Assembly: GCF_027111355.2 (NCBI RefSeq)
Contig: NZ_CP114291.2
Location: 2,356,001 to 2,420,000 of the forward strand
Source: Flavobacterium eburneipallidum
GTDB taxonomy: Bacteria > Bacteroidota > Bacteroidia > Flavobacteriales > Flavobacteriaceae
Direction of reading: 5' to 3'
Length of the DNA stretch: 64,000 bases
Shown here: positions 256 through 63,755 of the stretch, piece by piece
Layout of the letters: every line of letters begins with the position of its first letter
Numbering within the stretch: the first letter of the stretch is position 1
Notes under the pieces: model-generated
What the model was told of the DNA's origin: nothing
Database searches by the model: none
What the model saw: the letters and a program-made list of their open reading frames with translations, nothing else
Program-made: the position numbers and the translations under genes

Positions 256-2514
256 ATGAAAAAAAATATACTATTTCTTTTGCTCTTTATTTCTCAAATT
301 TCTTTTTCTCAAGAAACAGGTATTAGTAAAGATACTTCTTCTGATGAAACTAAAAAGCGTGCTTCATTCAACCAAAATTCAACTAATTCTTTGGAAGAAA
401 ATAGGATGCAACAACTTAAAAACAATATTGATGCTATTAGTGTTGATGCGCCTGGTCTATCAGAAAAAATTAATATTAATATAAAAGAAGCTTCACTTTC
501 CACTTTTTTATTGGCCATTTCTCAAATGCATAAGCTAAATATTAGTGTTGCTCCAAATCTGGCTCAAATAAATATTGTAAATAATTTTTCTGATGTAAAT
601 GTTGGCGATTTGTTACTTTTTTTATGTAAAGAATACAATCTTACTATCGATTTTTCAGGCAGCATTATAGCCATTAAATCCTACCAAAAACCAGCAGAAA
701 AAAAGATTGAAAAAGTATTTGAAGTTAAGTATGAAGTATCCAATAATCTACTTTCCCTTAACTTAAAAGAAGATCTTTTATATGATGTTTTCAAAAGAAT
801 TACCGATGAGAGTGGTAAAAATTTGGTATTTACTCCAGGCATGGAAAATAAACTCTTAACAGCATACATTAAAAGCATGCCATTTGATGCAGCCCTAGAT
901 AAATTAGCTTTAGCTAATAATCTTACGGTGACAAAATCTAAAGACAGTTTTTATGTTTTTGATGTATTAGAAGGCAATTCTTCTAATAATGCAACTACTC
1001 GTTCTGGCAAGTCGCAAAGTAGAAAATCAAATTCCCAATTTACAGTAATTGATACCAATAAAAAAATATTGGATGTTAACTTTGAAAATACACCTATTTC
1101 GAGTATTGTCTATGATATTGGACACGAATTGGATATTGATATGTTCATTTCTAGTCCTTTGGAAGGTGCAGGAAATGCAACAGTAAAAGCCAAAAACATA
1201 TCTTTTGATGCGCTTTTGAGTAAAATATTTGAAACTAAAACAGAAGCAAAAACGGAAAACAGATTGCCATCCAATAATGGGGCACAACGTCAGCTTAATA
1301 ATGATTCACCAGCCGAGTCAGGAGCTAGTGGAGATAGCTACACCTTTATGAAAAGCGGAACCATATACTATTTTGGAACTAAAAATCAATTGGTAGTACG
1401 AAATGTAAAATCAATTCCCTTAATGCATCGTTCCATTGAACTGTTGGGTGATTCCTCAAATGAAGGCAGAAGTTCAGGAAGATTGAATAACACAAATACT
1501 AATGTCAATAATTACGCTAACAACAATAGTATTAACGGGTCAGATAGTAGAAATACATCAAATTTCCAACAACAAAATAATTTCAACAATACGAGTAATA
1601 ATAGTAGTGGAAATAGTAATCCTTCAGAATCCATCCTGACTATTATTCCAGATGAAATAAAAAAAGATTTGGATATTAAAATTGATAAGGAATTGAATAG
1701 CTTTTTGGTCAATGGACCAGCCGCTAATATTGAACGTTTTGAATCTTTTATAAAATACATCGACAAAGCGGTTCCTGTAATCCTGATTGAAGTAATGCTC
1801 CTAGAAGTAAACAAAAGTACTACGGTAGAAACAGGAATAAATGCTGGAATTGGAGATAAACCTGTAACAACTTCAGGAACAGTTTTCCCAACTGTTGATA
1901 TGAATCTGGGAGCGCAAACTATTAACAATATTATTGATGGATTTAGTGGATTTGGATCCTTAAATATTGGAAAGGTAGTACCCAATTTTTATATAAGCCT
2001 TAAAGCAATGGAAACCAACGGGAATTTAAAAATACGTTCTTCCCCTAGATTGTCAACCTTAAATGGTCATAAGGCTTTTTTATCCATAGGAGAAACTACC
2101 TATTATGTGGTTACCAATCAAAATTTTTATGGTTCTCAAATCCCAACAACTTCCGAAATTAAAAACTACCAACCTATTGATGCCGAATTATCGGTTACCA
2201 TTATGCCTTTAGTTTCAGGTGATGGCCAAATAACCTTGGATATTAAAGTAATACAATCAAGTTTTAATGGTCAAAAAGTGGATAAAAACGCACCTCCTGG
2301 TATCAATTCTAGAGAGTTTACCTCAATAATTAGGGTAAAAGATCAAGATTTGATTGTGCTTGGAGGTTTAGAAGAATCTACTAAAAATGATTCAGGTATA
2401 GGAGTTCCATTATTATCGAGAATTCCTATAATCAAATGGCTCTTTAGTTCTAGAAGCCGTCAGGATTCGAAGAAAAAATTAACTGTATTAATCAAACCAA
2501 CTGTTATTTACTAA
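256..2514 (+). CDS. Type II secretion / type IV pilus secretin (GspD/PilQ family)
   Basis: The 752-residue protein starts with a Sec signal peptide (about residues 1-19, ending SFSQ). Several N-terminal periplasmic modules follow (about 70-400), then an Asn/Ser-rich low-complexity linker (about 405-465) and a C-terminal secretin domain (about 500-750) that ends with the typical SRIPIIKWLF segment and a short tail. Secretins form the outer-membrane gate for folded exoproteins or pili. The stop codon overlaps the next start by one base, so translation is probably coupled. The Asn-rich linker is long for the family. GspD and PilQ are both possible; the GspE/L/M-like neighbours favour a T2SS-like machine. 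Confidence 0.9.
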   Translation: MKKNILFLLLFISQISFSQETGISKDTSSDETKKRASFNQNSTNSLEENRMQQLKNNIDAISVDAPGLSEKININIKEASLSTFLLAISQMHKLNISVAPNLAQINIVNNFSDVNVGDLLLFLCKEYNLTIDFSGSIIAIKSYQKPAEKKIEKVFEVKYEVSNNLLSLNLKEDLLYDVFKRITDESGKNLVFTPGMENKLLTAYIKSMPFDAALDKLALANNLTVTKSKDSFYVFDVLEGNSSNNATTRSGKSQSRKSNSQFTVIDTNKKILDVNFENTPISSIVYDIGHELDIDMFISSPLEGAGNATVKAKNISFDALLSKIFETKTEAKTENRLPSNNGAQRQLNNDSPAESGASGDSYTFMKSGTIYYFGTKNQLVVRNVKSIPLMHRSIELLGDSSNEGRSSGRLNNTNTNVNNYANNNSINGSDSRNTSNFQQQNNFNNTSNNSSGNSNPSESILTIIPDEIKKDLDIKIDKELNSFLVNGPAANIERFESFIKYIDKAVPVILIEVMLLEVNKSTTVETGINAGIGDKPVTTSGTVFPTVDMNLGAQTINNIIDGFSGFGSLNIGKVVPNFYISLKAMETNGNLKIRSSPRLSTLNGHKAFLSIGETTYYVVTNQNFYGSQIPTTSEIKNYQPIDAELSVTIMPLVSGDGQITLDIKVIQSSFNGQKVDKNAPPGINSREFTSIIRVKDQDLIVLGGLEESTKNDSGIGVPLLSRIPIIKWLFSSRSRQDSKKKLTVLIKPTVIY

Positions 2515-3710
2515 TGACACTCCCCTCTTTAGCTACTCTTTTGCTAGGCAAACAATACATTGGTATTGAGCACTTTTCTTTAAATAATGAAGAAAAGATG
2601 GCAATATTGTTGGTAGAAAAGAAAAAAGAAGAACTTATAATTATAAAAAAAGATAGACTTACACATTCAGAAACACTTCCGGAAAAATGGGATAAAACTC
2701 TTCCTTTTTTCCTTGTTATAAACACCAATAAGGTTATTCAGAAAGAAGTTCAAGGAATAGATGCTTCAGACGATAAATTACTACACAAAGCATTTCCTAA
2801 TAACAATTGGGAAGAATTTTATTTTGAAACATGGCGGTTTAAAACCAAATCAATTGTAGCCATAAGTAGAAAAAATTATATTGAAGAAATAACATTCAAT
2901 TATAACAAACAAGGAATTACCATTGCAGGAATCAGTTTAGGAATTGGTTCAATTGCCGAAATAATTAATTACACCGATAGAGAGGAATTGTTTACCAATC
3001 ATCAAACGATTTGTAAAAGTGAAGAAAGCCCAATTATTCAAACCAATACCAAAATAGCAGATACTGTTTTAAATATAAATGGTCTGGAAGTGCAAAACAC
3101 CCATTTGTTAGCTTTTGCAGGCATATTGAGATTATTATTAAACGGTACAAAGAATACTGGAAACTTAATAAATTACAGTCATCAACTATATGAGAAATAC
3201 AATCAAAAAAGTTTTTTTTCAAAAGGAATAAAACTGATGATTGGTATATTGCTTACGATTTTACTAGTCAATTTTTTACTGTTTTCTCATTACTTCAAAT
3301 TAGCTGCTGAAACTTCAGAAAATCTTTTGTTGAGTAAATATTCATTTGAAGAAGTGATAAAAACAAAACAACGTATTTTAGCTAAAGAACAAAAAGTCAA
3401 TAATGTGGTCGCCATGACAGCATCACAAAGTTCATTAGTCATTAACGAAATCAGCAAAAGAATTCCATCGTCTATTTTACTAACTGAATTGGTTTATCAT
3501 CCATTAGAAAAAAAGATTAAAATAGAAGAACCAATTTTAACCCAAGTAAAAACTATTACTCTTTCTGGAACAACAATTAACAATACAGCTTTCACGCATT
3601 GGATTGAATCTCTAGAGCGTTTAAAATGGATGAAGCAAGTCATAATTACCCACTTTGGAAAAAATGACCTCAATGAAACGGAATTTTCTATTAAATTAAT
3701 CTTGAAGTAA
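2514..3710 (+). CDS. GspL/PilM-PilN-like inner-membrane assembly protein
   Basis: This 398-residue protein has a cytoplasmic N-terminal half, one transmembrane helix at about residues 238-262, and a periplasmic C-terminus. The C-terminal half, with a segment beginning INEISKRIPSSILLTEL, is laid out like the PilN/GspL ferredoxin-like domain. In the known systems this protein links the cytoplasmic ATPase to the periplasmic platform. The N-terminal half is too divergent for me to confirm an actin-like PilM/GspL fold. The call rests on topology and position: the gene overlaps the secretin by one base and lies 1 bp before a GspM/PilO-like gene. Confidence 0.6.
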   Translation: MTLPSLATLLLGKQYIGIEHFSLNNEEKMAILLVEKKKEELIIIKKDRLTHSETLPEKWDKTLPFFLVINTNKVIQKEVQGIDASDDKLLHKAFPNNNWEEFYFETWRFKTKSIVAISRKNYIEEITFNYNKQGITIAGISLGIGSIAEIINYTDREELFTNHQTICKSEESPIIQTNTKIADTVLNINGLEVQNTHLLAFAGILRLLLNGTKNTGNLINYSHQLYEKYNQKSFFSKGIKLMIGILLTILLVNFLLFSHYFKLAAETSENLLLSKYSFEEVIKTKQRILAKEQKVNNVVAMTASQSSLVINEISKRIPSSILLTELVYHPLEKKIKIEEPILTQVKTITLSGTTINNTAFTHWIESLERLKWMKQVIITHFGKNDLNETEFSIKLILK

Positions 3711-3711
3711 A

Positions 3712-4236
3712 ATGAGGCTAAATAGAAAAAATAAAGGATTATTATTTGGCTTTTTGATAGCACTGTATATTTGTTATTCTTTTGCGATTTCAAATACGAT
3801 TAGCTATTACAAAGAATATCAGTCTAAAAGTGAAATGATTTCTGAAAACAACAGCTCTCCAAAATTAGCAAATCAGCTGCGCCAAAAAGAAAAACAACTG
3901 GATGTAATGTTGTCTCGCTACAATATTAAAACTTCAGAATCTTTTCAAAATGACCTATTGAAGCAACTTACTGCTTATGGTGATTCCTATCATTTAAAAA
4001 TCATTGATTTTAAAGAACCTCATTCTATTACCGATAAAGGTTTTACAACTACAAGCTACATTTTTTCATTAGAAGGTTCTTTCAACGGCTGTTTAGCATT
4101 ATTGAACAAAATAGAAAACAATCCTACTTTAGGGAGTATTAAGCATTTGAATTTTACTAAAAAAAGAAACTACAAAACCAATATAGATCAATTATTTTTA
4201 GAAGTTATTTTGCAGAAGAATAAGGGAATTAAGTAA
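3712..4236 (+). CDS. GspM/PilO-like inner-membrane assembly protein
   Basis: The 174-residue protein has one N-terminal transmembrane helix (about residues 9-27), a short coiled-coil-like stretch (about 50-70) and a periplasmic alpha/beta domain. This is the size and topology of GspM/PilO, which pairs with GspL/PilN in the inner-membrane platform. It starts 2 bp after the preceding stop and is the last gene of the secretion operon. Family assignment is mainly by topology and synteny. Confidence 0.55.
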   Translation: MRLNRKNKGLLFGFLIALYICYSFAISNTISYYKEYQSKSEMISENNSSPKLANQLRQKEKQLDVMLSRYNIKTSESFQNDLLKQLTAYGDSYHLKIIDFKEPHSITDKGFTTTSYIFSLEGSFNGCLALLNKIENNPTLGSIKHLNFTKKRNYKTNIDQLFLEVILQKNKGIK

Positions 4237-4603
4237 TGTTATCCGTTTAAAATCAATATGTTTTACCTGTGTTTATCAAATTAAGTAAATCATTAAACTA
4301 GTAACTTGAATTATATATTTGAATGAGTAATTAAAACTGTTAAATAGTTTTGAGATGAATTGGAATTGATAACTTTTCGCTTGCAAAAATCAAAATGATT
4401 TTACGCCCATGTTTGTCTTAAAAATACTTACCTTCGTCTTTCATTCTATTAAAGAATTATATCGTAATTTTAAACAGATTTAAGCCGGTCTGGAACTTTC
4501 AATATGTATAAAAATGCATAAAAAGTTCGTGGCAAAATCGTGGCGCAGTAGTTAGAAAATATTAGAAATGCAGTATATAAGCGGGATGTGACGATTTTGT
4601 TCG

Positions 4604-4636
4604 AATCCCTCTTTCTCCGCCAGTAGAAATACAAAT
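4604..4636 (+). repeat. Left attachment-site repeat (tRNA-Ser 3' end)
   Basis: This 33-bp sequence is identical to 45660-45692. It contains CCCTCTTTCTCCGCCA, the expected T-stem, acceptor and CCA end of a tRNA-Ser, preceded here by TTCGAAT, a perfect T-loop. The 5' part of a tRNA is missing: the bases just upstream cannot pair with CCCTC to form a T-stem. It is therefore a tRNA fragment, as tRNA-targeting integrases typically leave. 4237-4603 holds no gene I can support. Confidence 0.75.
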
Positions 4637-4642
4637 TGAATT

Positions 4643-4676
4643 AAAACCCTTTAAATCGTATGATTTAAAGGGTTTT
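4643..4676 (+). terminator. Rho-independent terminator after the tRNA fragment
   Basis: A 15-bp perfect stem (4643-4657 with 4662-4676) and a 4-base loop run into a T-tract. Its position directly after the tRNA-Ser 3' end suggests it is the original tRNA terminator carried along with the attachment site. The second attachment copy has a hairpin of different sequence in the same place. Confidence 0.75.
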
Positions 4677-4724
4677 TTCGTTTACAACACCTTCAAATTA
4701 TTCATTAATGCGTGAACCTAAAGG

Positions 4725-4776
4725 GATAAAATCGGTTACCCTAAACTATCCGAAATTAGGGTAACCGATTTTTATC
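4725..4776. repeat. Long inverted repeat between att site and integrase
   Basis: The arms 4725-4744 and 4756-4776 are complementary apart from one extra A, giving a stem of about 20 bp with an 11-base loop. It lies between the attachment repeat and the integrase gene. It could be an intrinsic terminator insulating the element or an arm-type/accessory-factor site. A comparable inverted repeat of unrelated sequence occupies the same place before the second integrase. Confidence 0.6.
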
Positions 4777-4904
4777 TCTAGGCTATTATTTACAAAGCTT
4801 CCGAACCAGTTCATTAACCAGTTCAAGAAGTAGTTCACTATCTGAACATCTTGTGATATAGTCTTTTTAGAATTAAATTTAATAATAACTAAAAGGTTAC
4901 CACG

Positions 4905-6161
4905 ATGAAAACAAAAGTATCTATTCTCTTTTACGCAAAGAGAGCCAAAGCCAGTGTAAACGGTTTAGTCCCTATTTACACCCGAATTACCATTAATGGC
5001 AAAAGAATTGAATTAAGCTCCAACCGATTTGTAGAAATGTCCAAATGGTCGACAGAAGCGGGTAAAATGAAAGGCAATTCAGAAGAAGCTCGTTCAATAA
5101 ATAGCCATCTTGATATGTTGAGAATTCAAATTATTGATATGCAAATGGAATTAGTACACAAGAAAATTCCAGTAACAGCCGAAACACTCAAAAGTAAAAT
5201 ACTAGGAGTTGACGAAAGAGCAAGAATGTTAATCCCAATCTTCCAAGACCACAATAACAAAATCAAAGAACTGGTTGGTAAAGAATATGCACCAGGAACA
5301 TTAGAACGTTACAAAACATCTTTGAGCCATACTATTGAATTCCTGCAATGGAAATACAAAGTTTCGGATATTGAGATAAATAAAATAGATCACGCCTTTG
5401 TTACTGATTATGAGTTTTGGTTAAGAAGCGTTCGGAACTGTGCCAATAACACAGCGGTTAAATACATCAAGAATTTCAATAAAATAATAAAGCTTTGTCT
5501 GGCCAATGACTGGCTTGACAAAAATCCGTTCGCAAATTACAAATCGAAAGTAAAAGAAGTAGAACGGGTTTATTTATCTGAAGAAGAAATTCAGAACATC
5601 ATCAACAAAGATTTCAAAACAGAAAGATTGTCTTTGGTGCGTGATATATTCCTTTTTAGCTGCTTTACTGGTTTGGCATACATAGATGTCAAAAACTTAA
5701 CAAAGTCACATATAAGCATCGGTATTGATGGTGAGAAATGGATATTTACCCACAGACAAAAAACCGAAACCGCTTCTAAAATCCCTATACTCCCAGTTAC
5801 TCAATTGATTATTGATAAATACGCAGACCACCCAAAAAGCAATAATGAAGACAGACTTTTGCCAATTCTTACTAATCAAAAAATGAATGCTTATCTAAAA
5901 GAAATAGCGGGCGTTTGCGAGATTGAAAAAGAATTAACCTTCCACATTGCCCGACATACTTTTGCAACCACTGTAACGCTTACAAATGGCGTTCCGATTG
6001 AAAGTGTAAGCAAAATGCTGGGGCATAAAAATTTGAGAACTACCCAACACTATGCAAAGGTTTTGGATAAAAAAGTAAGCGAGGATATGCAGATTTTGAG
6101 AGATAAATTTTCAATGAAATCAATTAATCAAGAGCAAAAACAATTAACATCAAATTCTTAA
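4905..6161 (+). CDS. Tyrosine recombinase / integrase, Bacteroidetes IntDOT-like
   Basis: The 418-residue protein has an N-terminal arm-binding domain (about 1-95), a SAM-like core-binding domain (about 105-205) and a C-terminal catalytic domain (about 215-405). Visible catalytic residues are HIAR (about 347-350), LGH (about 372-374) and a tyrosine near 383 in QHYAK. The first catalytic arginine is replaced by alanine in FTGLAYIDV. IntDOT of Bacteroides conjugative transposons also lacks that arginine. The gene lies just inside the left att repeat and probably integrates and excises island 1. The 31 bases before the start, ending GGTTACCAC, closely match those before the second integrase. Confidence 0.92.
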   Translation: MKTKVSILFYAKRAKASVNGLVPIYTRITINGKRIELSSNRFVEMSKWSTEAGKMKGNSEEARSINSHLDMLRIQIIDMQMELVHKKIPVTAETLKSKILGVDERARMLIPIFQDHNNKIKELVGKEYAPGTLERYKTSLSHTIEFLQWKYKVSDIEINKIDHAFVTDYEFWLRSVRNCANNTAVKYIKNFNKIIKLCLANDWLDKNPFANYKSKVKEVERVYLSEEEIQNIINKDFKTERLSLVRDIFLFSCFTGLAYIDVKNLTKSHISIGIDGEKWIFTHRQKTETASKIPILPVTQLIIDKYADHPKSNNEDRLLPILTNQKMNAYLKEIAGVCEIEKELTFHIARHTFATTVTLTNGVPIESVSKMLGHKNLRTTQHYAKVLDKKVSEDMQILRDKFSMKSINQEQKQLTSNS

Positions 6162-6203
6162 TGTTAGATTATTTCAATGAAAAAAAATACTAATTTCTAA
6201 AAA

Positions 6204-6560
6204 TTAAGAAGAAATCCCCAAACTCATTCCGTCTGTTATTGCAGGCGGATAACCAAAAACATCTCGTTGTTTTTGATAACGGTAATTAAATCGAATGACC
6301 GTTTGAGATGTTGATCTAAAACTAATTGCATACATTAAGCTCCAGAGATCTTCTCCAATATTTCCTCCAGTTTCATTAAAAGCTCCAACATTCCAATCTA
6401 CAAACTACATTCAATAAAGCATTTTCCTAACCTAAATTGTTTTTTTTCAAAACAGGTTGTACAACATCGATAAATCCATCATACTGCCTGTTTCTTAATT
6501 GTTGAGAATAAGTTGCCGGAACATCAACTTTAATCCAAGTAAATTCTGTTATAATAAATG
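6204..6560 (-). pseudogene. Decayed C-terminal remnant, probably an outer-membrane protein
   Basis: On the minus strand, two pieces of one coding sequence can be read in different frames. The upstream piece includes FTWIKVDVPATYSQQLRNRQ (about 6480-6550). The downstream piece includes WNVGAFNETGGNIGEDLWSL and ends at the TAA complementary to 6204-6206. A stop and frame change lie near 6390-6430. The alternating-residue pattern suits a beta-barrel or other envelope protein. I do not recognise the family and no intact start remains. Confidence 0.4.
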
Positions 6561-6656
6561 TTATCGTTTTTGGAAAGTACGATTTTGTATTGGTATTATT
6601 TTGAATTATCAACAAAATTCAATTTATATTCAAAATTTCAGTTGTTAATTTGCAAT

Positions 6657-7334
6657 ATGAAAATTTTAATAATAGAAGACGAAATTGATATTGCTACGAG
6701 TATTAAAATTTACTTGAGTAGAAATGATTTTATTTGTGAGTCAGCAAATTCTCTAAAAGTAGCAATCGAAAAAATCGACTTATATTCGTATGATTGTATC
6801 CTATTGGATTTAATGTTGACAGATGGGGATGGATTTAAAATTTTAGAATTACTTAAAAAACAAAATAAAACAGAAGGCGTTATCATAATTTCTGCCAAAG
6901 ACACTCTTGAAACTAAAATTGAAGGGCTAACACTTGGTGCCGATGATTATTTAACAAAACCATTTCATCTTTCTGAACTACTTGTTCGAATCCAAGCATT
7001 AATCAGACGCAAACAATTTAATGGAAATAATGTAATTTCTTTTAATGAAATTGAGATTGATACAATAAACAAATCGATTAAAATTAGAGGTAACAAAATT
7101 GAATTCACAAAAAAGGAAATGGATTTATTACTATTTTTGGTAGGTAATAAAAATAAAGTATTGTCCAAAAGTGCAATTGCAGAGCATTTATCAGGAGATA
7201 TGGCTGATATGTTAGACAATTATGATTTTGTATATGCTCATATAAAAAATATGAAAAAAAAACTGAAAGAAATGGGTGCTACAGATTATCTAAAATCAAT
7301 TTATGGAACGGGTTATAAATGGGGAGATGAATAA
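6657..7334 (+). CDS. OmpR/PhoB-family response regulator
   Basis: The 225-residue protein begins MKILIIEDE. Upstream in-frame codons exist, but this ATG gives the normal receiver start. The receiver domain (1-115) has the acidic pair near residues 8-9, the phosphoacceptor Asp51 in LLDLML, and the conserved Lys in DDYLTKPF. The C-terminal winged-helix domain (about 130-223) ends with YGTGYKW, typical of the family. The stop overlaps the sensor kinase start by 8 bp. It probably controls the adjacent TonB receptor and envelope genes. Confidence 0.93.
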   Translation: MKILIIEDEIDIATSIKIYLSRNDFICESANSLKVAIEKIDLYSYDCILLDLMLTDGDGFKILELLKKQNKTEGVIIISAKDTLETKIEGLTLGADDYLTKPFHLSELLVRIQALIRRKQFNGNNVISFNEIEIDTINKSIKIRGNKIEFTKKEMDLLLFLVGNKNKVLSKSAIAEHLSGDMADMLDNYDFVYAHIKNMKKKLKEMGATDYLKSIYGTGYKWGDE

Positions 7335-8592
7335 AAAACTACTTCAAAAAACACTTAATTATTATTTCATCTACGCATTAGTTATACTAATCACAGTTGG
7401 TCCTGTATTTTATTTTGTGTCTAAAATTATATATGAAGACGATGCTAACGAAGATTTATACGCAATAAAAAATCAGTTCGATAAATTTACAAAAGACAAT
7501 TTAACGGTAAAGGATATAGCAATCTGGAACAAGTTCAATCGTGATGTAAACATTGAAAAGCTCAACGGCATAAAGAAAGACAGTTTGTTCGATCATAGTT
7601 ATTATGACGCTCTTAATAAAGAAAATGAACCATTTAGAGTACTAAATTCACCAGTAAAAATTGAAGATAAATGGTTTACTTTTTCTGCTAAAATAAATAT
7701 GGTTGAAAAGGAAAATCTAATCGGAAGTACAGTAATCCTTTTCATTTCCTTATTATTGTTACTGATTGTCGGTTTTTTTATCATTACCAAAATAATTTCA
7801 AAAAAACTATGGCAACCATTTTATACAGCATTAGATAAAATGGAAAAATTTGAAATTGACAAATCGACATCTGTAAAATTAATCAAAACTACTACTGAAG
7901 AATTCAACAGATTGAATAACGCTATTGATAGCTTAATCCATAAAAACAGCAGTATCTATCAAAGTCAAAGAGAGTTTATAGAAAATGCTGCCCACGAATT
8001 ACAAACGCCAATTGCTATTTTTAAAGGAAAATTAGAAAATATTTTACAACGAAAAGACCTAAACGCTGAACAATTTAAATTAATTGATGATTTAAATAGC
8101 ACTACTTCCAGACTAGTTAAACTCAATAAAAACTTGTTAGTATTGTCAAAAATAGATAGCAATTCCTATAATGAAATCGAGAAAATTAGCTTAAACAATA
8201 CAATAAACAGCCAATTAGATTTTTTTAGTGAACAAGCTCTTTCAAAAAAAATAATCATTACAACCACATTAGTAGATGAAGTCACAATCAATTCAAATCA
8301 TATTTTGGCAGAAATACTAATTAGTAACCTGTTTTTAAACTCCATAAATCACAATACATTAAATGGTCTAATTAATATTAAACTGACTAATGAGCGACTA
8401 ACTTTCTCAAATTCAGGTTCACTTTTACCATTACAGACAGAAAAAATGTTCGAGCGTTTTTCTAAATCCAATCCAAGTTCTAAAGGAAATGGATTAGGAT
8501 TATCAATTATCAAAAAAATTGTAGATGCAAATCATTGGACTATTAACTACCATTTTATAAACCGAATACACACTTTTGAAATAGTTTTTTAA
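7327..8592 (+). CDS. Sensor histidine kinase
   Basis: I place the start at ATG 7327, preceded by the purine-rich GGGGAG and overlapping the regulator stop. The 421-residue protein has a transmembrane helix at about 12-35, an extracytoplasmic loop to about 135, a second helix at about 137-158, and a HisKA domain with phosphoacceptor His223 in AAHELQTP. An HATPase domain follows with SNLFLNSINHN (N box) and GNGLGLSII (G box). It phosphorylates the regulator encoded upstream. The sensed signal is unknown; similar TCS/TonB/PepSY groupings occur with envelope or metal stress in this phylum. Confidence 0.92.
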   Translation: MNKKLLQKTLNYYFIYALVILITVGPVFYFVSKIIYEDDANEDLYAIKNQFDKFTKDNLTVKDIAIWNKFNRDVNIEKLNGIKKDSLFDHSYYDALNKENEPFRVLNSPVKIEDKWFTFSAKINMVEKENLIGSTVILFISLLLLLIVGFFIITKIISKKLWQPFYTALDKMEKFEIDKSTSVKLIKTTTEEFNRLNNAIDSLIHKNSSIYQSQREFIENAAHELQTPIAIFKGKLENILQRKDLNAEQFKLIDDLNSTTSRLVKLNKNLLVLSKIDSNSYNEIEKISLNNTINSQLDFFSEQALSKKIIITTTLVDEVTINSNHILAEILISNLFLNSINHNTLNGLINIKLTNERLTFSNSGSLLPLQTEKMFERFSKSNPSSKGNGLGLSIIKKIVDANHWTINYHFINRIHTFEIVF

Positions 8593-8620
8593 AATTCAAC
8601 ATTCCTTCAAATTGCATTTT

Positions 8621-8628
8621 TACTTTTG
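8621..8628 (+). promoter_or_regulatory. Candidate -7 box (TAnnTTTG) for the TonB-receptor gene
   Basis: TACTTTTG matches the Bacteroidota -7 consensus exactly and lies 27 bp before the TonB-receptor start, in the 63-bp gap after the kinase gene. A clear -33 TTG partner at the expected spacing is not obvious. An independent promoter here would let the response regulator control its target separately. Confidence 0.45.
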
Positions 8629-8655
8629 TCTAATAAAATTAAAACAATAAGATAA

Positions 8656-11067
8656 ATGCGAATTAAAATCATTCTTTTAGTCTCATTTCTATTGCTATCA
8701 ATAGCAAATTTAGTAGCCCAAGAAAAAGTGGTAACGGTATCGGGCAGTACAAAAGACAAAATTACCAAAGCAGCTTTACCTTTCGTTAATGTAGTTTTAA
8801 AAACTTCAAAAGATGCTTCTATAGTTGCTGGCACAATAACCAATGAAGAAGGAAGATTTTCAATTGCTAACATAAAATCAGGAAATTACGTTTTAGAATT
8901 TTCATTCATTGGTTACAAAACCAAAACTCAATTGGTTTATGTGGGTTCACTTTCCGAATTTTTAGATCAAGGCACTGCAGAATTAGAGGAAGATACCACA
9001 ACTTTACAAGAAGTAGTAGTAGTTTCCGAGCAAAATACTATTGGAGAGAAAATGGATAAAAAAACATTTTCTATGGCTGATAATATTAGTCAAAGTGGTG
9101 GTTCAGTGCTGCAATCAATGCAAAATTTACCGGGTGTTACAGTGCAAGATGGCAAAGTACAAATTAGAGGTAACGATAAAGTTACCGTATTAATTGATGG
9201 TAAGCAAACGGCTTTGACAGGCTTCGGAAACCAATCAGGGTTAGATAATATTCCAGCTTCAGCAATCGATAAAATCGAAATCATTAATAATCCGTCAGCC
9301 AAATACGATGCAAATGGTAACGCGGGAATTATCAATATCATTTACAAGAAAAACAAAAAAGAAGGCTTTAACGGTAAAGTCGGTTTTACTTCTGGATTAG
9401 GTGCTTTATGGGAACGAAAAGAAAATTTACCTGCAATAAGACCTCAATACTCACTAACTCCAAAAGTTAATCCTACACTATCACTTAACTACCGTAAAAA
9501 TAAAATCAATGCATTCTTTCAAGGCGATTATTTATATACCGAAACGCTAAATAAAAATGAATTTGTGACGCGGACATACAATGACGCAACAATTATTAAC
9601 CAACAATTAAAAAGAAACCGAAATACACATTTCACAACTATCAAATCGGGAATTGATTGGAACATCAATGACCATAATACACTTACTGTTTCGGGTTTGT
9701 TTGGTTCAGAAAAAATTATTGATAACGGCGACCAGCCCTTTTTTAATGCGGACTATTCCGAGCGATTGCGACTTTGGACATTTTTGGAAGATGAATTAAA
9801 GACAACATATATGGGAACAGCATCGTATCAACATAAATTCAAACAAGCTGGACATTTATTGAATATAGGTTTCAATTATACTTTTCATAGAGAAGATGAA
9901 AAATATTTTTTCGATAATATTCTACCTACTTCAACCAGTAAAGATGCTTTCAAATTGTTGTCAGACGAAAGTGTAGTAGATTTTAATATTGATTATGTGA
10001 AGCCTTTAAAATACGGTCGAATTGAAACAGGGTTTAAATTTAGAAACCGAATTATTCCAACCAATATGCAATTCTTTCCTGGAACAAATTCGCCTTTAGA
10101 TGCAAGCGCAGGAGGCGAAGCAACTTATGAAGAAATTATTCCTGCAGTTTATGGAAACTACATTTATGAGACTAATAAAATCGAAGCAGAAATTGGATTA
10201 CGTTTAGAGTATTTAGATTTAGAATACGAAGTAAATCCAAACCATCCAACCTATAAAACTGATGGCTATTTCTATTTAGAACCGTTTCCAAATTTTCGCT
10301 TTGCCTATAAAATCAATGATAACAACAAACTATCGTTGTTTTACAACCGCAGAATTGACAGACCAAATGAAGTTGATATTCGAATATTTCCAAAATATGA
10401 CGATGCCGAAATTATCAAAGTGGGAAATCCTGCACTGCGACCACAATTTACCAATTTAGTAGAATTAGGTTTCAAAAGAAATTTAACAAAAGGATATTTA
10501 TATTCGGCTTTATACCATCGATTTGCTAATGCAACGATTACAAGAATAGCATCTACCGTACCCAATAGTAATCTAATTTATGCCATATTTCAAAACGTGG
10601 ATAAAAGTTCTAATACAGGTATAGAAATGGTTCTTTCCCAAGATTTCACAAAATGGTATTCCTCCAATCTTAACCTAAATGCCTATTACAATCAAATTGG
10701 TGCGTTTACGGTGCAAAATTTATATCCACAACCCAATACCTTTTCAGCAGCAAAACAAGAGGTTTTATCAGGAAACATAAAGTGGAATAATACGCTGCAC
10801 TTGCCCAAAAAAATAGATGCTCAAATAACGGCAATATATTTAGCCCCAGATATTATTCCGCAAGGCAAAATAAAATCGCGATTTTCAATTGATTTAGGGT
10901 TAAAAAAATCAGTCCAAAATGGCAAAGGAGAATTCTTTCTTAATGCAACAGACATTCTAAACACTCTGGTAATTAAAAAAGAAATTCAAGGGCAAAATTT
11001 TAGTTACACTAGTGTCGATTATTATGAAACACAAGTGATTAGATTAGGATATAATTATAAATTTTAA
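8656..11067 (+). CDS. TonB-dependent outer-membrane receptor (carboxypeptidase-regulatory-like N-domain)
   Basis: The 803-residue protein has a signal peptide ending LVAQ (about 1-22), a CarboxypepD_reg-like beta-sandwich (about 27-110), a plug with VQIRGNDKVTVLIDGKQ and NNPSAKYDANGNAGIINI motifs (about 150-235), and a C-terminal outer-membrane barrel to the terminal aromatic KF. These receptors import ligands with energy from TonB. No SusD-like partner follows, so a polysaccharide substrate is not indicated. It lies directly after a two-component system and 17 bp before a DUF347 gene, which suggests regulated uptake linked to envelope or metal response. Confidence 0.9.
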   Translation: MRIKIILLVSFLLLSIANLVAQEKVVTVSGSTKDKITKAALPFVNVVLKTSKDASIVAGTITNEEGRFSIANIKSGNYVLEFSFIGYKTKTQLVYVGSLSEFLDQGTAELEEDTTTLQEVVVVSEQNTIGEKMDKKTFSMADNISQSGGSVLQSMQNLPGVTVQDGKVQIRGNDKVTVLIDGKQTALTGFGNQSGLDNIPASAIDKIEIINNPSAKYDANGNAGIINIIYKKNKKEGFNGKVGFTSGLGALWERKENLPAIRPQYSLTPKVNPTLSLNYRKNKINAFFQGDYLYTETLNKNEFVTRTYNDATIINQQLKRNRNTHFTTIKSGIDWNINDHNTLTVSGLFGSEKIIDNGDQPFFNADYSERLRLWTFLEDELKTTYMGTASYQHKFKQAGHLLNIGFNYTFHREDEKYFFDNILPTSTSKDAFKLLSDESVVDFNIDYVKPLKYGRIETGFKFRNRIIPTNMQFFPGTNSPLDASAGGEATYEEIIPAVYGNYIYETNKIEAEIGLRLEYLDLEYEVNPNHPTYKTDGYFYLEPFPNFRFAYKINDNNKLSLFYNRRIDRPNEVDIRIFPKYDDAEIIKVGNPALRPQFTNLVELGFKRNLTKGYLYSALYHRFANATITRIASTVPNSNLIYAIFQNVDKSSNTGIEMVLSQDFTKWYSSNLNLNAYYNQIGAFTVQNLYPQPNTFSAAKQEVLSGNIKWNNTLHLPKKIDAQITAIYLAPDIIPQGKIKSRFSIDLGLKKSVQNGKGEFFLNATDILNTLVIKKEIQGQNFSYTSVDYYETQVIRLGYNYKF

Positions 11068-58588: not shown

Positions 58589-58626
58589 TGTCTGATAGCG
58601 AACTTCTGTTTGTATCAGACATTTTT
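58589..58626 (+). terminator. Terminator after the LLM gene
   Basis: A 9-bp perfect stem (58589-58597 with 58613-58621) is followed by five T residues. It closes the detoxification run before the second rteC. Confidence 0.7.
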
Positions 58627-59370
58627 ATATTCTTTAATTCAAATATTTAATTCAAATTGTATGAAACAAAAATACATTCTGGAAAACTATGACAGAATAC
58701 TAAAAAAAATCAAAAACCCAAGGATTATTTTCAGTAACGACCTAATACCATTTCTAGAAAATTTTACTTCAGAAAGTTTCCTTATTTACCAAGTAGATTT
58801 CATCAAGCAAAGTGGGAATACAAAATATACTATAAAGAAACCAATCCACAATCTGTATCCAAAAGTTACAAAACTAAATTTCAAAGAAAGTGATGTGCCT
58901 GAAGGATTTGAACGATTTATTCCAAAAATACTTGATGAACTAAACATTACAGAGATCCAAATCAGTTTACGTTGCTGTTCCAAAAACGATAATGTTATAT
59001 ACATTTTACAAGAGTGTGAAATCGAAGATTTATCACAAGAAAAACGTTTCTTTCTATATTGTTACCATTCACTGAAAAATGAAAATGCTAAAATAAAGAA
59101 AACAAATAAAGAACGGGTTTTTAAATTAAAATCAAAAGAGCAAATCGAGCAGTACATCCATCGAAAACAGTATGCACTTGAAAATTTAGCTCATAAATTT
59201 ATAAAAGAAATCAATCCCGCAAACTCATTAGACTTATATCAATTTTCCAATAATTATGATAAAATAGATTGTTTAAAAATTACTTATATTTACGCACCTA
59301 TCCATATTAAGACAAACGGTGTTAAAAGTATAAAATAAATTCAGATATTTGATTAATTAAAACAAATCAA

Positions 59371-59985
59371 ATGGAAGAAAAATTAAAAGAACAAGAATCA
59401 GAAACGATTTTTGAAAAAGGAATTGGATTGGAAAAAGAATTTTGCGAGTATTTAAAATCTGATTTAGGTTGGGAAAAAGCAAGAATACGTTCTCAAATGG
59501 CATCGAAGTTTAATATGCGAGGTACTAATGTTGACGTGATTGCTGAACGTTTAGATAATAGAGGCGAAAGATTAAAAAAACTAGGTAATTTCTATATGAT
59601 TATTTGCATACTTACTTGTTTGATAGGTCTATTTTTAGTGATAAACAATAATTCAGATGGAATGTATATAATATTTTTTGGCACATTTGTTTTAATAATT
59701 GGAATTATTTCTTTTAAATTAAGTGAAAACTTAAATAAAGAAAATGCTTGGGTTGAATGTAAAAACCTTAAAACAAAAGTTAATATTAGTCAAGTTCAAA
59801 AAACGATTGATGAAATTAACCATTATAAAGCAAGTGAAAATAAAGAATATAAGTTTGTTGAAGTGTATTTTATTTCATCAAATGGATTTGTAGAAAACGC
59901 TTTGAAATTAGCAATAGACAATAAAATAATTTGCTACATAAAAGAGAATGAAAAATTTAAAAAAATTGATTATTGGAATCACTAA
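59371..59985 (+). CDS. Membrane-anchored PD-(D/E)xK nuclease-like passenger protein
   Basis: The 204-residue protein starts with a Glu/Lys-rich helix, then GLEKEFCEYLKSDLGW and NMRGTNVDVIAE (catalytic-type Asp near residue 55), then two hydrophobic helices (about 74-91 and 94-114), then NAWVECKNLKTKVNISQVQK (ExK near 128-130). D and ExK are spaced as in Mrr-like restriction nuclease domains, but the two membrane helices are inserted between them. It lies inside the IS element and travels with it. DNA target and activity are unknown. Confidence 0.6.
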   Translation: MEEKLKEQESETIFEKGIGLEKEFCEYLKSDLGWEKARIRSQMASKFNMRGTNVDVIAERLDNRGERLKKLGNFYMIICILTCLIGLFLVINNNSDGMYIIFFGTFVLIIGIISFKLSENLNKENAWVECKNLKTKVNISQVQKTIDEINHYKASENKEYKFVEVYFISSNGFVENALKLAIDNKIICYIKENEKFKKIDYWNH

Positions 59986-59997
59986 AAATTAGGAAAA

Positions 59998-60111
59998 ATG
60001 ATAACAAAAGAAAAATTAAAAACAGCGTGGGATAAGCATCCAATAGCTTTAACAATTGGAGTTTTAGCAGTTTTAGTTGGTTGCTATGACATTTATAAAA
60101 GGAGTAAATAA
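59998..60111 (+). CDS. Short membrane protein of the IS element (37 aa)
   Basis: ATG 59998 to TAA 60109-60111 encodes 37 residues: a polar start, KTAWDKHPIALTIGVLAVLV with one helix, and the tail YDIYKRSK. It lies 12 bp after the nuclease-like gene and 1 bp before the transposase ATG, so the three are likely one transcript. Confidence 0.5.
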   Translation: MITKEKLKTAWDKHPIALTIGVLAVLVGCYDIYKRSK

Positions 60112-60112
60112 A

Positions 60113-61057
60113 ATGAACTTAAAGCAATTACATAAGGACTTTGGAACACAAAAAAAGTGTGTTGCCTATCTTGAAAAAATAAGATGGGGCAAGAATCCTG
60201 TTTGTGCTAATTGTGAATCGTCAAACGTTACTAAACGTAAAGATGGTATGCGTTGGCATTGTAACAGTTGCAGGAAAGACTACAGCGTGATTATGGGAAC
60301 GATATTCGAGGGAACACGTTTACCTTTACCACAGTTCTTTCAAGCAATGTTTATAATGAATAACGCTAAAATGGGAATATCTGCATCTGAAATTTCAAGA
60401 GCAGTAGGAATCAAATATAATACGGCTTGGTATGTTTGCCATAGAGTAAGATGCGCAATGATTAACAACGAATTAAGATTAGAGGGAGTTGTCGAATTTG
60501 ACGAAGCATATATGGGTGGAAAAGCAAGAAACAGAAAGAAACCCATAAACGAAGCAAATTTAGCAAGGATAACATCCACAAGAGGTCGAGGCACGTCTAA
60601 AATACCAGTAGTCGGGGCAGTCGAAAAGAAAGGTAAAGTATATGTGAAAATTATTGAGAAACTAACTTCAAGAAATTTGTTGGCAATGCTTAAAAAAGTA
60701 GTTAAGACAAATGAAACGATAGTTATTACAGATGATTTTAGAAGCTACAAAGCATTTGATGACGAAGTAGAACATATTACTATAAAACATAGTGAGGGTT
60801 ACGGTAAAGGAATGAGAACGATAAATACAATTGAGGGGTTTTGGAGCATAATCAAAAACGGAATCAAAGGTAGTTTCAGGAGTGTAAGCAAAAAGTACCT
60901 ACCATTTTATCTTGCCGAGTTCTCATACAAGTACAATAACCGTCATTTACAGAAAGATGCTTTCCTGCAACTGCTTAAAAATGCGGTAGTTGAAGAAAAA
61001 CATTTCAATAATTATAAACCTATCGGAAATCCGAGGGATATAGTTTATAATCAATAA
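60113..61057 (+). CDS. IS1595-family transposase
   Basis: From ATG 60113 the protein has 314 residues. A zinc ribbon lies near the N-terminus (CANCESS ... WHCNSCRKD, CxxC twice). The DDE domain shows VEFDEAYMGGK (first Asp), VITDDFRSY (second Asp) and NTIEGFWSIIKNGIKG near the C-terminus. All catalytic positions appear intact, so the element may be active. A longer reading frame begins 36 bp upstream but this ATG gives the family's usual start. Confidence 0.93.
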   Translation: MNLKQLHKDFGTQKKCVAYLEKIRWGKNPVCANCESSNVTKRKDGMRWHCNSCRKDYSVIMGTIFEGTRLPLPQFFQAMFIMNNAKMGISASEISRAVGIKYNTAWYVCHRVRCAMINNELRLEGVVEFDEAYMGGKARNRKKPINEANLARITSTRGRGTSKIPVVGAVEKKGKVYVKIIEKLTSRNLLAMLKKVVKTNETIVITDDFRSYKAFDDEVEHITIKHSEGYGKGMRTINTIEGFWSIIKNGIKGSFRSVSKKYLPFYLAEFSYKYNNRHLQKDAFLQLLKNAVVEEKHFNNYKPIGNPRDIVYNQ

Positions 61058-61717
61058 CTTAACAAAGTGCATTTGTCTTAATATGGATAGGTGCGTATAT
61101 TTATCTTGAAAAATTACTTCGTTTTATAGAAAAAGAATATCGGAATGACACTTTACAAACAAATAAATTTTACAACTATTTCCGAAGAAACAATCAAGGA
61201 ATCCCTTTTCTATTTAAACTTCAATTCTCTTAAGTTTTTTAAATACTTAACTGCTGATATTATTCAGGAATTAGAAGCTCAAGAAAACAATTTCCAAAAG
61301 ATAGATCTACTATACAAGCTTTTAAAAAATTACAACCAAAAGCAAATTAGAAATTTCATAAAATACAAACCAAATTTGCCATCATTGAAAGAGCAAATAA
61401 TCAGTTGGATTGAAGAAGAAATTGATTATTTATCCAAAAAAATTAAACTCGAATCCAACCAATTGGCAACTATTTCAAACAATGAAACAAAAACTAAATT
61501 TTTAACCAATTTATCAGTAGCACAATTAAGTTATTTTTTTGGCTTATTGATAGAAACAGGGATTATCAAACACAAAAACCAATCAGATATTTTTAGGTTC
61601 ATTGCAGAAAACTTCAAAACAAATAATACCGAAAAAATATCTGTGGATAGTATTAAAGTAAAATATTACAACGTTGAAAACTCTACTAAAAAAGCATTTC
61701 GAGAAAAATTAATAGAA

Positions 61718-62010: not shown

Positions 62011-62793
62011 ATGGCTGTAAATGTAATACGAAGAAAAGAGTTATACGAAATAATGCCCGAGGGTTTAGTAACTACTCATAAGTGGCTTATGGAAAATAAT
62101 TTAAGCCGTCACGCAATAGATAATTTGGTAAAAAGCAATCAACTAGAATCTATCAGCAAAGGGGTTTATGTTAGAAATATCAGCAAAATAACTTGGCAAT
62201 CCGTAGTTTTCTCCTTGCAATCAGTATTGAAATTAGATTTGGTTGTAGGTGGTTTAACAGCACTTGAAATACAGGGATTATCGCATTACTTATCACTTTC
62301 AGAAAATAAAATAGTGCATTTATTTGGAAATGATCTATTGCCAGAATGGGTTACTAATTTAGATTTGAATATAAAATTTGTTAGACATACTACCAATAGT
62401 TTATTTGTCGAAAATAAAGAAAACAAACAATTACATCCTTTTACATCAGAAAGAAATTGGGATAATGACAATAGAAAATTAATACTATCTATCCCAGAAA
62501 GAGCCTATCTCGAAGTATTATTAGACGTACCGCAAAAAACAACTTTTGAACACGCAGACCAATTAATGCAAGGGCTAACAACATTGTCCCCTAGAAATCT
62601 CCAAAAAGTGCTGGAATGCTGTCAAAATGTAAAGGTAAAACGACTTTTCTTTTGGTTTGCAGACCGCCAAAATTATGTTTGGTTGGGTAAAATAAATCGA
62701 GAAAGTATAACATTGGGTTCTGGAAACAGAATGCTCATAAAAGGCGGAAAATTAGATACTAAATATAAAATAACAGTTCCTGAATGGCTTTAG
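62011..62793 (+). CDS. abiEi: AbiEi-type antitoxin / transcriptional regulator
   Basis: The 260-residue protein has an N-terminal winged helix (about 10-55, GLVTTHKWLMENNLSRHAID) and a C-terminal antitoxin-like region with AYLEVLLDVPQKTTFEHADQ. It corresponds to the AbiEi family, which represses its own promoter and neutralises AbiEii. Its stop overlaps the AbiEii start by 10 bp. The pair acts in abortive infection. Confidence 0.88.
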   Translation: MAVNVIRRKELYEIMPEGLVTTHKWLMENNLSRHAIDNLVKSNQLESISKGVYVRNISKITWQSVVFSLQSVLKLDLVVGGLTALEIQGLSHYLSLSENKIVHLFGNDLLPEWVTNLDLNIKFVRHTTNSLFVENKENKQLHPFTSERNWDNDNRKLILSIPERAYLEVLLDVPQKTTFEHADQLMQGLTTLSPRNLQKVLECCQNVKVKRLFFWFADRQNYVWLGKINRESITLGSGNRMLIKGGKLDTKYKITVPEWL

Positions 62794-63755
62794 ACGCAAA
62801 CAATATATACCGCAAACAGGTACAACTTTTAGTCCGTGTTTTACCGTTAGTGGATACTGAAAAATGTTTTGCATTAAAAGGTGGAACAGCAATTAATTTG
62901 TTTTACAGAGCTTTGCCTCGACTTTCTATTGACATTGATTTACTATACATTCCGATGGATGATCGAGATACAGCATTACTAAATATTAGAGAAGCTTTAT
63001 CAAGAATAAGCAAATTGATACAACAAAAAATACCTGGAACCAAAGTACAAAACACACACGACCAAAGCGATGCACTACGCTTAATTGTAAGTCAAGATGA
63101 AATTCGCATCAAAGTAGAATTATCGCCAGTAATCAGAGGAACTGTTTTTTCAGAAGTTAGAATGGAAGTTGTTGAAGAAGTGGAAAGAGAATTTGGATAT
63201 GTAGAAATGCAAGTAGCATCGCTTCCAGATTTATATGCGGGTAAATTATGTGCGGCTTTAGACAGACAACATCCAAGAGATTTATTTGATGTAAAATTTC
63301 TTCTCGAAAACGAAGGTTTAACAGATAATTTACGAAAAACATTCTTAATATTTCTAATAAGTCATCAACGACCAATGTCAGAACTGTTGGCACCAAATCG
63401 AAAAGATATTAGCGAAATCTACGAAACCGAGTTCAAACAAATGGCTGAAGTTGATGTACCTTTAGAACAATTGGAAGAAGCTAGAGAAAATCTAATTTAT
63501 CAAATCAATTCACAAATGACAGAGAATGAAAAGAAATTTCTTTTGTCTTTCAAAAACAAAACTCCTGATTGGAATTTACTAGAAATGGAAAATATTACAG
63601 TAATTGCTAATCTTCCTTCGGTACTTTGGAAAATGATAAATCTTGAAAAAATGCCAACTCATAAGCACAAAGAAGCGTATGATAAATTGCAAAATATACT
63701 ATATACTATATCCAATACAACAAAAATACCCTTTAAAGCATATCCCAAATTCTAA
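62784..63755 (+). CDS. abiEii: AbiEii nucleotidyltransferase toxin
   Basis: The 323-residue protein has the nucleotidyltransferase signature FALKGGTAINLFYRALPRLS followed by IDIDLLY (GG/GS and DxD), and ELSPVIRGT, LYAGKLCAALDRQHPRDLFD (Lys and Asp of the family motif). AbiEii uses nucleotides to inactivate the cell's translation or growth machinery. All catalytic residues seem present. It overlaps abiEi and ends with a strong terminator. Confidence 0.9.
   Translation: MALDANNIYRKQVQLLVRVLPLVDTEKCFALKGGTAINLFYRALPRLSIDIDLLYIPMDDRDTALLNIREALSRISKLIQQKIPGTKVQNTHDQSDALRLIVSQDEIRIKVELSPVIRGTVFSEVRMEVVEEVEREFGYVEMQVASLPDLYAGKLCAALDRQHPRDLFDVKFLLENEGLTDNLRKTFLIFLISHQRPMSELLAPNRKDISEIYETEFKQMAEVDVPLEQLEEARENLIYQINSQMTENEKKFLLSFKNKTPDWNLLEMENITVIANLPSVLWKMINLEKMPTHKHKEAYDKLQNILYTISNTTKIPFKAYPKF

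Follow-up and report, generated by a model that had tools for sequence, protein, structure and literature searches.

What a nuclease-like membrane protein might do inside a small insertion sequence is the question raised by a locus in Flavobacterium eburneipallidum. The window, as we call the whole stretch of DNA analysed here, comprises 64,000 nucleotides (contig NZ_CP114291.2, positions 2,356,001 to 2,420,000) and contains an element that carries two passenger genes, P1 and P2, together with its transposase. A sequence-only reading of the window had described an IS1595 element whose larger passenger, P1, combines a D...ExK arrangement with two transmembrane helices placed between the catalytic-type residues. 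We examined the element, the relatives of P1 and the other transposons in which P1 occurs, and weighed the functions that this arrangement could serve.

A complete IS1595-family element with two passengers

The element is as that reading had described it: the terminal repeats match over their full 24 bp, an 8-bp target duplication flanks them, the transposase is intact, and two passengers are present (Table 1). The transposase frame is open, with Pfam matches to DDE_Tnp_IS1595 (1.9e-31) and Zn_ribbon_IS1595 (7.3e-10), and scores 185 bits against the NCBIfam IS1595 model (cut-off 75), so that domain, zinc ribbon, terminal repeats and 8-bp duplication all agree with membership of the IS1595 family. 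Since similar ends, 8-bp duplications and the motif are all found again in related elements, chance is unlikely to explain the element. The genome (3.85 Mb, a single contig) contains one full copy, as well as two further IS1595 transposases with 50-51% identity to that of the window, one of which has an internal stop. A reading frame at 58610-59338 extends into the left end of the element. AbiE genes are located near the element in the window, a nearness that may be due to chance.

Table 1. Features of the element in the window (positions in the window) and of two further transposons carrying P1 (positions in their own contigs)
Feature	Position	Strand	Size and sequence	Basis or remark
Whole IS1595-family element	59293-61095		1803 bp	complete, with two passengers
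Target duplication, left copy	59285..59292	.	8 bp, TATATTTA	read from sequence
Inverted repeat, left	59293..59316	+	24 bp, CGCACCTATCCATATTAAGACAAA	24/24 match with right end
P1 gene, Mrr-type PD-(D/E)XK-like, membrane hairpin between D55 and E129xK131	59371..59985	+	204 aa	Mrr_cat profile and invariant residues
D55 codon, catalytic-type aspartate	59533..59535	+		invariant in 44/44
Two hydrophobic helices of P1, residues ~74-92 and 98-116	59590..59718	+		hydropathy
ExK motif codons, E129-C130-K131	59755..59763	+		E129 and K131 invariant in 44/44
P2 gene, one predicted transmembrane helix	59998..60111	+	37 aa	hydropathy 2.19
Transposase gene, IS1595 family	60113..61057	+	314 aa	Pfam and NCBIfam above cut-offs
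Inverted repeat, right	61072..61095	-	24 bp	24/24 match with left end
Target duplication, right copy	61096..61103	.	8 bp, TATATTTA	read from sequence
L006 (F. aquatile) transposon	5087-8867		3.78 kb	repeats start GGTAAGTATATAG, duplication AAGTATTT
L009 transposon	3215-6999		3.79 kb	repeats start GGTAGTGTCCTAATTTG, duplication TAGCAGTT

P1 resembles an Mrr-type nuclease with a hairpin between its catalytic-type residues

Searched against 5.8 billion proteins, the P1 of the window retrieved 29 sequences, one of them its own entry, and an alignment of these retrieved 42. The 44-row alignment used below combines 39 of the search entries with the P1s of L008, L009, L010, L011 and L018, while P0013, with its diverging C-terminus, and the fragments P0026 and P0042 were left out of alignments A2 and A3. 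D55, W127, E129, K131, A177 and C188 are invariant in all 44 relatives. The sequence-only reading was right about two hydrophobic stretches lying between the D and the ExK, and the homologues retain all three residues, so that the refuting case of homologues lacking them did not arise, but it had numbered the motif as E128 and K130, one position off from the correct E129 and K131. With the two most distant members as query, 18 proteins were retrieved, including sequences from Leptospira and Polyangium; in this set together with the P1 of the window, E129 and K131 are again invariant (19/19), and D55 is found in all 18 rows that cover the site.

The Pfam profile Mrr_cat (PF04471) matches 33 of the 44 relatives at E<=1, with a best value of 7.2e-6, and the whole P1 of the window reaches 17.4 bits, below the curated cut-off of 21. 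If the hairpin is an insertion in an Mrr_cat domain, the score should climb when this stretch is deleted. After in-silico removal it was higher in all five proteins tested: it rose from 17.4 to 23.7 bits in the P1 of the window, which thereby crosses the cut-off, from 26.5 to 32.0 in P0030, where the span on the 115-position profile widened from 39-107 to 4-107, and from 20.7 to 25.1 in the P1 of L018, while P0033 (13.8 to 19.6) and the P1 of L011 (13.2 to 19.2) remained under the cut-off, leaving three of the five above it. The C-terminal half by itself scores lower (18.1 in the window, 18.4 in P0030), which indicates that the N-terminal half contributes to the match. Weak secondary matches of the hairpin-less sequences include other restriction-endonuclease-type families (HSDR_N_2, PDDEXK_15 and NA-iREase1). 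Against this assignment, an hhalign comparison of the hairpin-less family with one Mrr protein from the same genome gave no signal over 60 shuffles, and PDB sequence searches returned nothing below E 0.1. P1 looks like an Mrr-type PD-(D/E)XK protein, and the profile scores argue that its two halves form one Mrr_cat domain in which D55 would meet E129 and K131 in space. Scores and invariant residues together support the PD-(D/E)XK-type core, broken by a membrane hairpin, that had been proposed for this protein.

A hairpin with the behaviour of a replaceable cassette

The two hydrophobic stretches that separate D55 from the ExK motif in the P1 of the window have Kyte-Doolittle peaks (17-residue averages) of 2.89 and 2.51. 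The stretch from D55 to W127 contains two TM-like peaks in 39 of the 44 relatives and one in the other 5; in P0032, an additional TM-like peak lies outside this stretch. Because there are two helices, both nuclease halves would lie on the same side of the membrane, and basic residues ahead of the first helix suggest that this side is the cytoplasm.

The hairpin is far less conserved than its surroundings, with a mean pairwise identity (946 pairs) of 18% compared with 48% for the N-terminal and 50% for the C-terminal half; P0013 and P0026 were left out of the pair comparisons and of the trees of 27 proteins described below. Among pairs whose nuclease halves are 85-93% identical, hairpin identity ranges from 16% (P0006/P0008) to 88% (P0002/P0003), and P0003 and P0007, with halves that are 98% and 88% identical, share only 28% of their hairpin. 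P0011 is 89% like P0001 in its nuclease halves and 19% in its hairpin, whereas its hairpin is 62% like that of P0016, to which its halves are just 67% and 56% alike. The trees conflict correspondingly: a clade of P0011 and P0016 is present in the hairpin tree (support 97/98) and rejected by the nuclease halves (p-AU 0.0004), a clade of P0001-P0011 is rejected by the hairpin (p-AU 0.0003) and allowed by the halves (p 0.41), and the clade of P0007, P0008 and P0010 in the hairpin tree is neither shown nor rejected by the halves (p 0.36), all these AU-test values being optimistic because the groups were picked after the alignment had been viewed. With near-identical halves bearing unlike hairpins and with trees in conflict, the hairpin appears to behave like a replaceable cassette. 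Judged from these alignments, its exchange is well supported in at least one case, further exchanges are likely, and plain drift does not account for the pattern. P0026, from a 688-base contig, resembles a chimera of the P0003 and P0006 types; it may be an assembly artefact and was excluded as evidence.

Carriers and distribution of P1

We found P1 as a passenger of three different backbones, two of them IS1595 lineages and one an IS1-family element. Six P1 loci (L006-L011) were found in the GTDB contig collection, and they include the other P1-bearing IS1595 elements that the sequence-only reading had proposed to look for. Two of these, L007 (Flavobacterium agri) and L010 (from a Bacteroidota MAG), have the same build as the window element: their inverted repeats differ from those of the window by 2-3 mismatches, each has its own 8-bp duplication (TTTTAATT and TTTTTTTA, respectively), their transposases are 80% and 71% identical to that of the window, and a small TM-like ORF follows P1 as it does there. 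L006 belongs to a distant IS1595 lineage, with a transposase just 30% identical to that of the window and convergent to P1. The transposase of L009 matches IS1 (3.5e-7, above the cut-off, partial), and P1 and a small TM ORF are divergent from it, so P1 lies outside the transposase transcription unit in both L006 and L009. No element ends were seen at L008, which lies near a serine recombinase, or at L011, a 3.7-kb contig on which P1 precedes the gene of a patatin-like phospholipase. L017 comes from a further genome of the genus and lies at the end of a contig, where P1 residues 1-116 and one element end are preserved. A membrane ORF at L015 (766-1455) was considered as a further IS1595 passenger and rejected; the element there spans 1439-3058, so that all but the last bases of the ORF lie outside it, and the ORF matches no family above cut-off.

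The P1 of the window is 46% identical to the P1s of both like elements (L007 and L010) and 52% identical to that of the unlike L006, and a single clade for the P1s of the three like elements is rejected (p-AU 1e-45). The P1 tree thus does not follow its carriers: either P1 switches between them or its alleles are swapped, and this happens at a faster pace than the divergence of the transposases.

Of 398 genomes examined in the genus, 3 yielded P1; among 397 genomes drawn from the family and 395 from the phylum, the only one found was that of the window itself. Two scans of viral contigs gave 31 and 41 pattern matches, none of them a relative, phage records contained no match, and the P1s of the window, L008, L009 and L018 had no match to PADLOC 2.0.0 models at E<=0.01. 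The distant branch reaches three Leptospira weilii plasmids, which carry an identical P1 relative (26.5% identity to P1) ahead of a reverse transcriptase and downstream of an IS481 transposase. The reverse transcriptase, tested on one of the three plasmids, is called RT_UG13a by PADLOC (E 1.4e-210), a neighbour that gives no more than a hint of defence company for P1. A fixed link between P1 and UG13-type reverse transcriptases was considered and rejected, as in two of the four records with a 29% identical reverse transcriptase, H13 and H16, the 3 kb around it contain no relative of P1.

Possible functions of P1

Conservation of the catalytic set points to cutting as the activity under selection, the hairpin would place this activity at the membrane, and hairpin exchange suggests that the partners of the membrane part differ or change. 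The sequences show the element, the conserved motif, a profile match that is better without the hairpin, at least one exchange of the hairpin and several carriers, whereas nuclease activity, topology, sensing, defence and the role of P2 are inferred. We tentatively favour, at somewhat less than an even chance, the reading that P1 is a cytoplasmic nuclease with an Mrr/PD-(D/E)XK core, tethered to the membrane and carried as cargo, that cuts foreign DNA on entry. It would in this respect resemble SNIPE, an inner-membrane nuclease that cleaves phage DNA as it is injected and whose anchor keeps it from damaging host DNA (PMC13190303). We propose the following hypothetical scheme in which (i) the two halves of P1 would both lie in the cytoplasm, joined through the transmembrane hairpin between the segment with D55 and the segment with E129xK131; (ii) the tether to the inner membrane would keep the nuclease away from the chromosome and at the site where foreign DNA enters; (iii) the hairpin would bind or sense the entry machinery or a disturbance of the membrane and so set the active site; (iv) P2 would most likely act as a membrane partner or regulator of P1; and (v) transposons would bear P1, with or without P2, because the module guards the host, or the element within the host, from phage or plasmid DNA. 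We lean towards the exclusion of incoming DNA because P1 occurs in unlike backbones and, in two of them, outside the transposase transcription unit. We count in favour of this reading the invariant residues beside a poorly conserved hairpin, the rise of the Mrr_cat score, the conflicting histories of hairpin and halves, the patchy presence, the several carriers, the RT_UG13a neighbour and the precedent of SNIPE, and against it the lack of PADLOC matches, the lack of phage or viral relatives, and the fact that the reverse transcriptase neighbour represents one system on three plasmids.

A more specific and, in our judgement, rather unlikely version holds that P1 is a membrane-gated nuclease in a single chain. 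The D and ExK segments would enter the two arms of the hairpin, so that binding or disturbance at the membrane would assemble or break the active site; the hairpin would be an exchangeable specificity cassette, swapped between nucleases that are otherwise nearly identical, and IS1595 and IS1 transposons would spread the module as cargo against incoming DNA.

P1 could instead serve the transposon, as a PD-(D/E)XK accessory to the DDE transposase, as an anchor of the transposition complex, or by excluding competing elements at the membrane. In favour of this, wherever ends could be resolved around P1, the element is a DDE transposon, of the IS1595 or IS1 kind, flanked by 8-bp duplications, and the three genes of the window element are arranged head to tail, with 12 bases between P1 and P2 and 1 base between P2 and the transposase. 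However, the transposases of its carriers are unlike one another (30% identity in L006, IS1 type in L009), with P1 convergent or divergent there; around L008, L011 and the Leptospira plasmids, either no end of such a transposon is seen or at most an IS481 transposase is close by; and two other IS1595 elements of the genus, L014 and L022, manage without P1. Because the carriers differ and P1 is not part of the transposase unit in either L006 or L009, a role in transposition is the less likely one, and we assign it a small probability.

The second passenger raises the prospect of a toxin-antitoxin or addiction pair that stabilises the element, with P1 as a nuclease toxin checked by P2, or with P2 as a small membrane toxin. 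Small hydrophobic proteins are common in toxin-antitoxin pairs. A P2-type ORF is located at most 25 bases after P1 in four of the six loci read (the window, L007 from an internal ATG, L009 and L010), and 1.1% of random window sites precede such an ORF, a background counted within limits that the ORF of L007 does not reach (hydropathy 1.72 against 1.8, and shorter from its ATG). In contrast, no such ORF was seen after P1 in L006, in L008 or in the Leptospira loci, so the partners are not always together, and the P2 sequences bear hardly any resemblance to one another. We therefore regard an addiction pair as improbable.

Equally doubtful is the view that P1 is an anchored nuclease for housekeeping or for DNA processing, as in uptake, repair or recombination, and that its hairpin is a mere anchor under weak constraint: it would fit a hairpin that retains hydrophobicity rather than sequence (at least one TM-like peak in 44/44), but not one that is closer between distant cores (P0011/P0016) than between near-identical ones (P0011/P0001), nor the conflicting trees and the presence in so few genomes of the genus.

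If the favoured reading of P1 as a membrane-tethered nuclease against incoming DNA is true, a single protein of about 200 residues would both sense at the membrane and cut DNA, its exchangeable sensor lying inside the catalytic core, and defence where DNA enters the cell, a principle recently shown for SNIPE, would extend to another nuclease superfamily. The natural set of hairpins would then be useful for finding what is sensed, and even an insertion sequence of 1.8 kb could bear such cargo.

Comparison with known systems

The nuclease superfamily and the type of element are known, and what is new is their arrangement, which we could not find described: the literature searched, to which this statement is limited and which includes passages of PMC1913061, PMC7159879, PMC11090510 and PMC5704250, contained no description of a P1-type passenger or of a membrane hairpin that divides a PD-(D/E)XK core. 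New here are the occurrence of P1 in three backbones, with P2 in four of six loci, the cassette-like hairpin, and the distant branch that reaches Leptospira plasmids.

P1 shares with Mrr_cat (PF04471) and type IV Mrr proteins the D...ExK motif and a profile match that improves without the hairpin. It differs from them in the transmembrane hairpin of about 55 residues between the catalytic residues, in the lack of a visible DNA-binding domain, and in that the whole window protein stays below the cut-off. In Tn7, TnsA complements TnsB; it is a restriction-endonuclease-like protein beside a DDE transposase and a fixed, soluble partner. P1 is likewise restriction-endonuclease-like and encoded beside a DDE transposase, but it changes carriers and has a membrane hairpin, and no TnsA profile is among its Pfam matches at E<=1. 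IS1595-family elements with passengers, such as tISCpe8 with lincomycin resistance (cited in PMC5704250), resemble the window element in their IS1595 transposase, inverted repeats, 8-bp duplication and passenger gene, whereas the window element carries a nuclease-like membrane protein instead of a resistance gene.

A parallel in design is SNIPE, which is likewise a membrane-tethered nuclease with a cytoplasmic catalytic part and a poorly conserved membrane part (PMC13190303), features that P1 would share if its predicted topology and action hold. SNIPE, however, combines a single N-terminal helix with DUF4041 and a GIY-YIG domain (PMC13190303), whereas in P1 the helices sit within an Mrr-type core. 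Neither DUF4041 nor GIY-YIG is among the Pfam matches of P1 at E<=1, and P1 is therefore not a member of SNIPE. Membrane location is described as a principle of specificity common to Zorya, Kiwa and SNIPE (PMC12904381). Like Zorya and Kiwa, which act where phage DNA crosses the membrane, P1 may operate at the point of entry; in contrast to these systems, in which several proteins provide sensor and effector separately (PMC12904381), P1 would combine both in one chain.

Neighbours of P1, related transposons and a possible further carrier

L014, another IS1595 element in the window's own genome, which lacks P1, and the P1-bearing IS1-type transposon at locus L009 each hold an ORF with a hydrophobic tail, as judged by eye, and the N-terminal stretches of the two ORFs share 24% identity over 75 residues (single-comparison E-value 6e-4). 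These ORFs may form a family of membrane-anchored DNA-binding passengers.

Transposons of L014 and L009 and their ORFs
Locus	Element	Element span	ORF	Strand
L014	IS1595 element	861-2480	929-1438	+
L009	IS1-type transposon	3215-6999	3236-3823	-

At a further P1 locus (L008 2478-6588), a large serine recombinase is encoded near P1 (Resolvase, 1e-24) and no element ends were resolved around P1; the carrier is perhaps a fourth type of mobile element. In the window, the final part of a reading frame (58610-59338, continuing from 61104) is disrupted by the IS1595 element; the left part of this frame (58610-59338) has no Pfam match at E ≤ 1. The element is followed, about 1 kb downstream, by an AbiEi/AbiEii type IV toxin-antitoxin pair (62011-63755; Pfam 8.2e-42, 3e-41). 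The distant P1 relative and reverse transcriptase of Leptospira weilii occur on three plasmids (L018-L020), all with the same IS481 transposase upstream, beyond which the genes differ among the plasmids.
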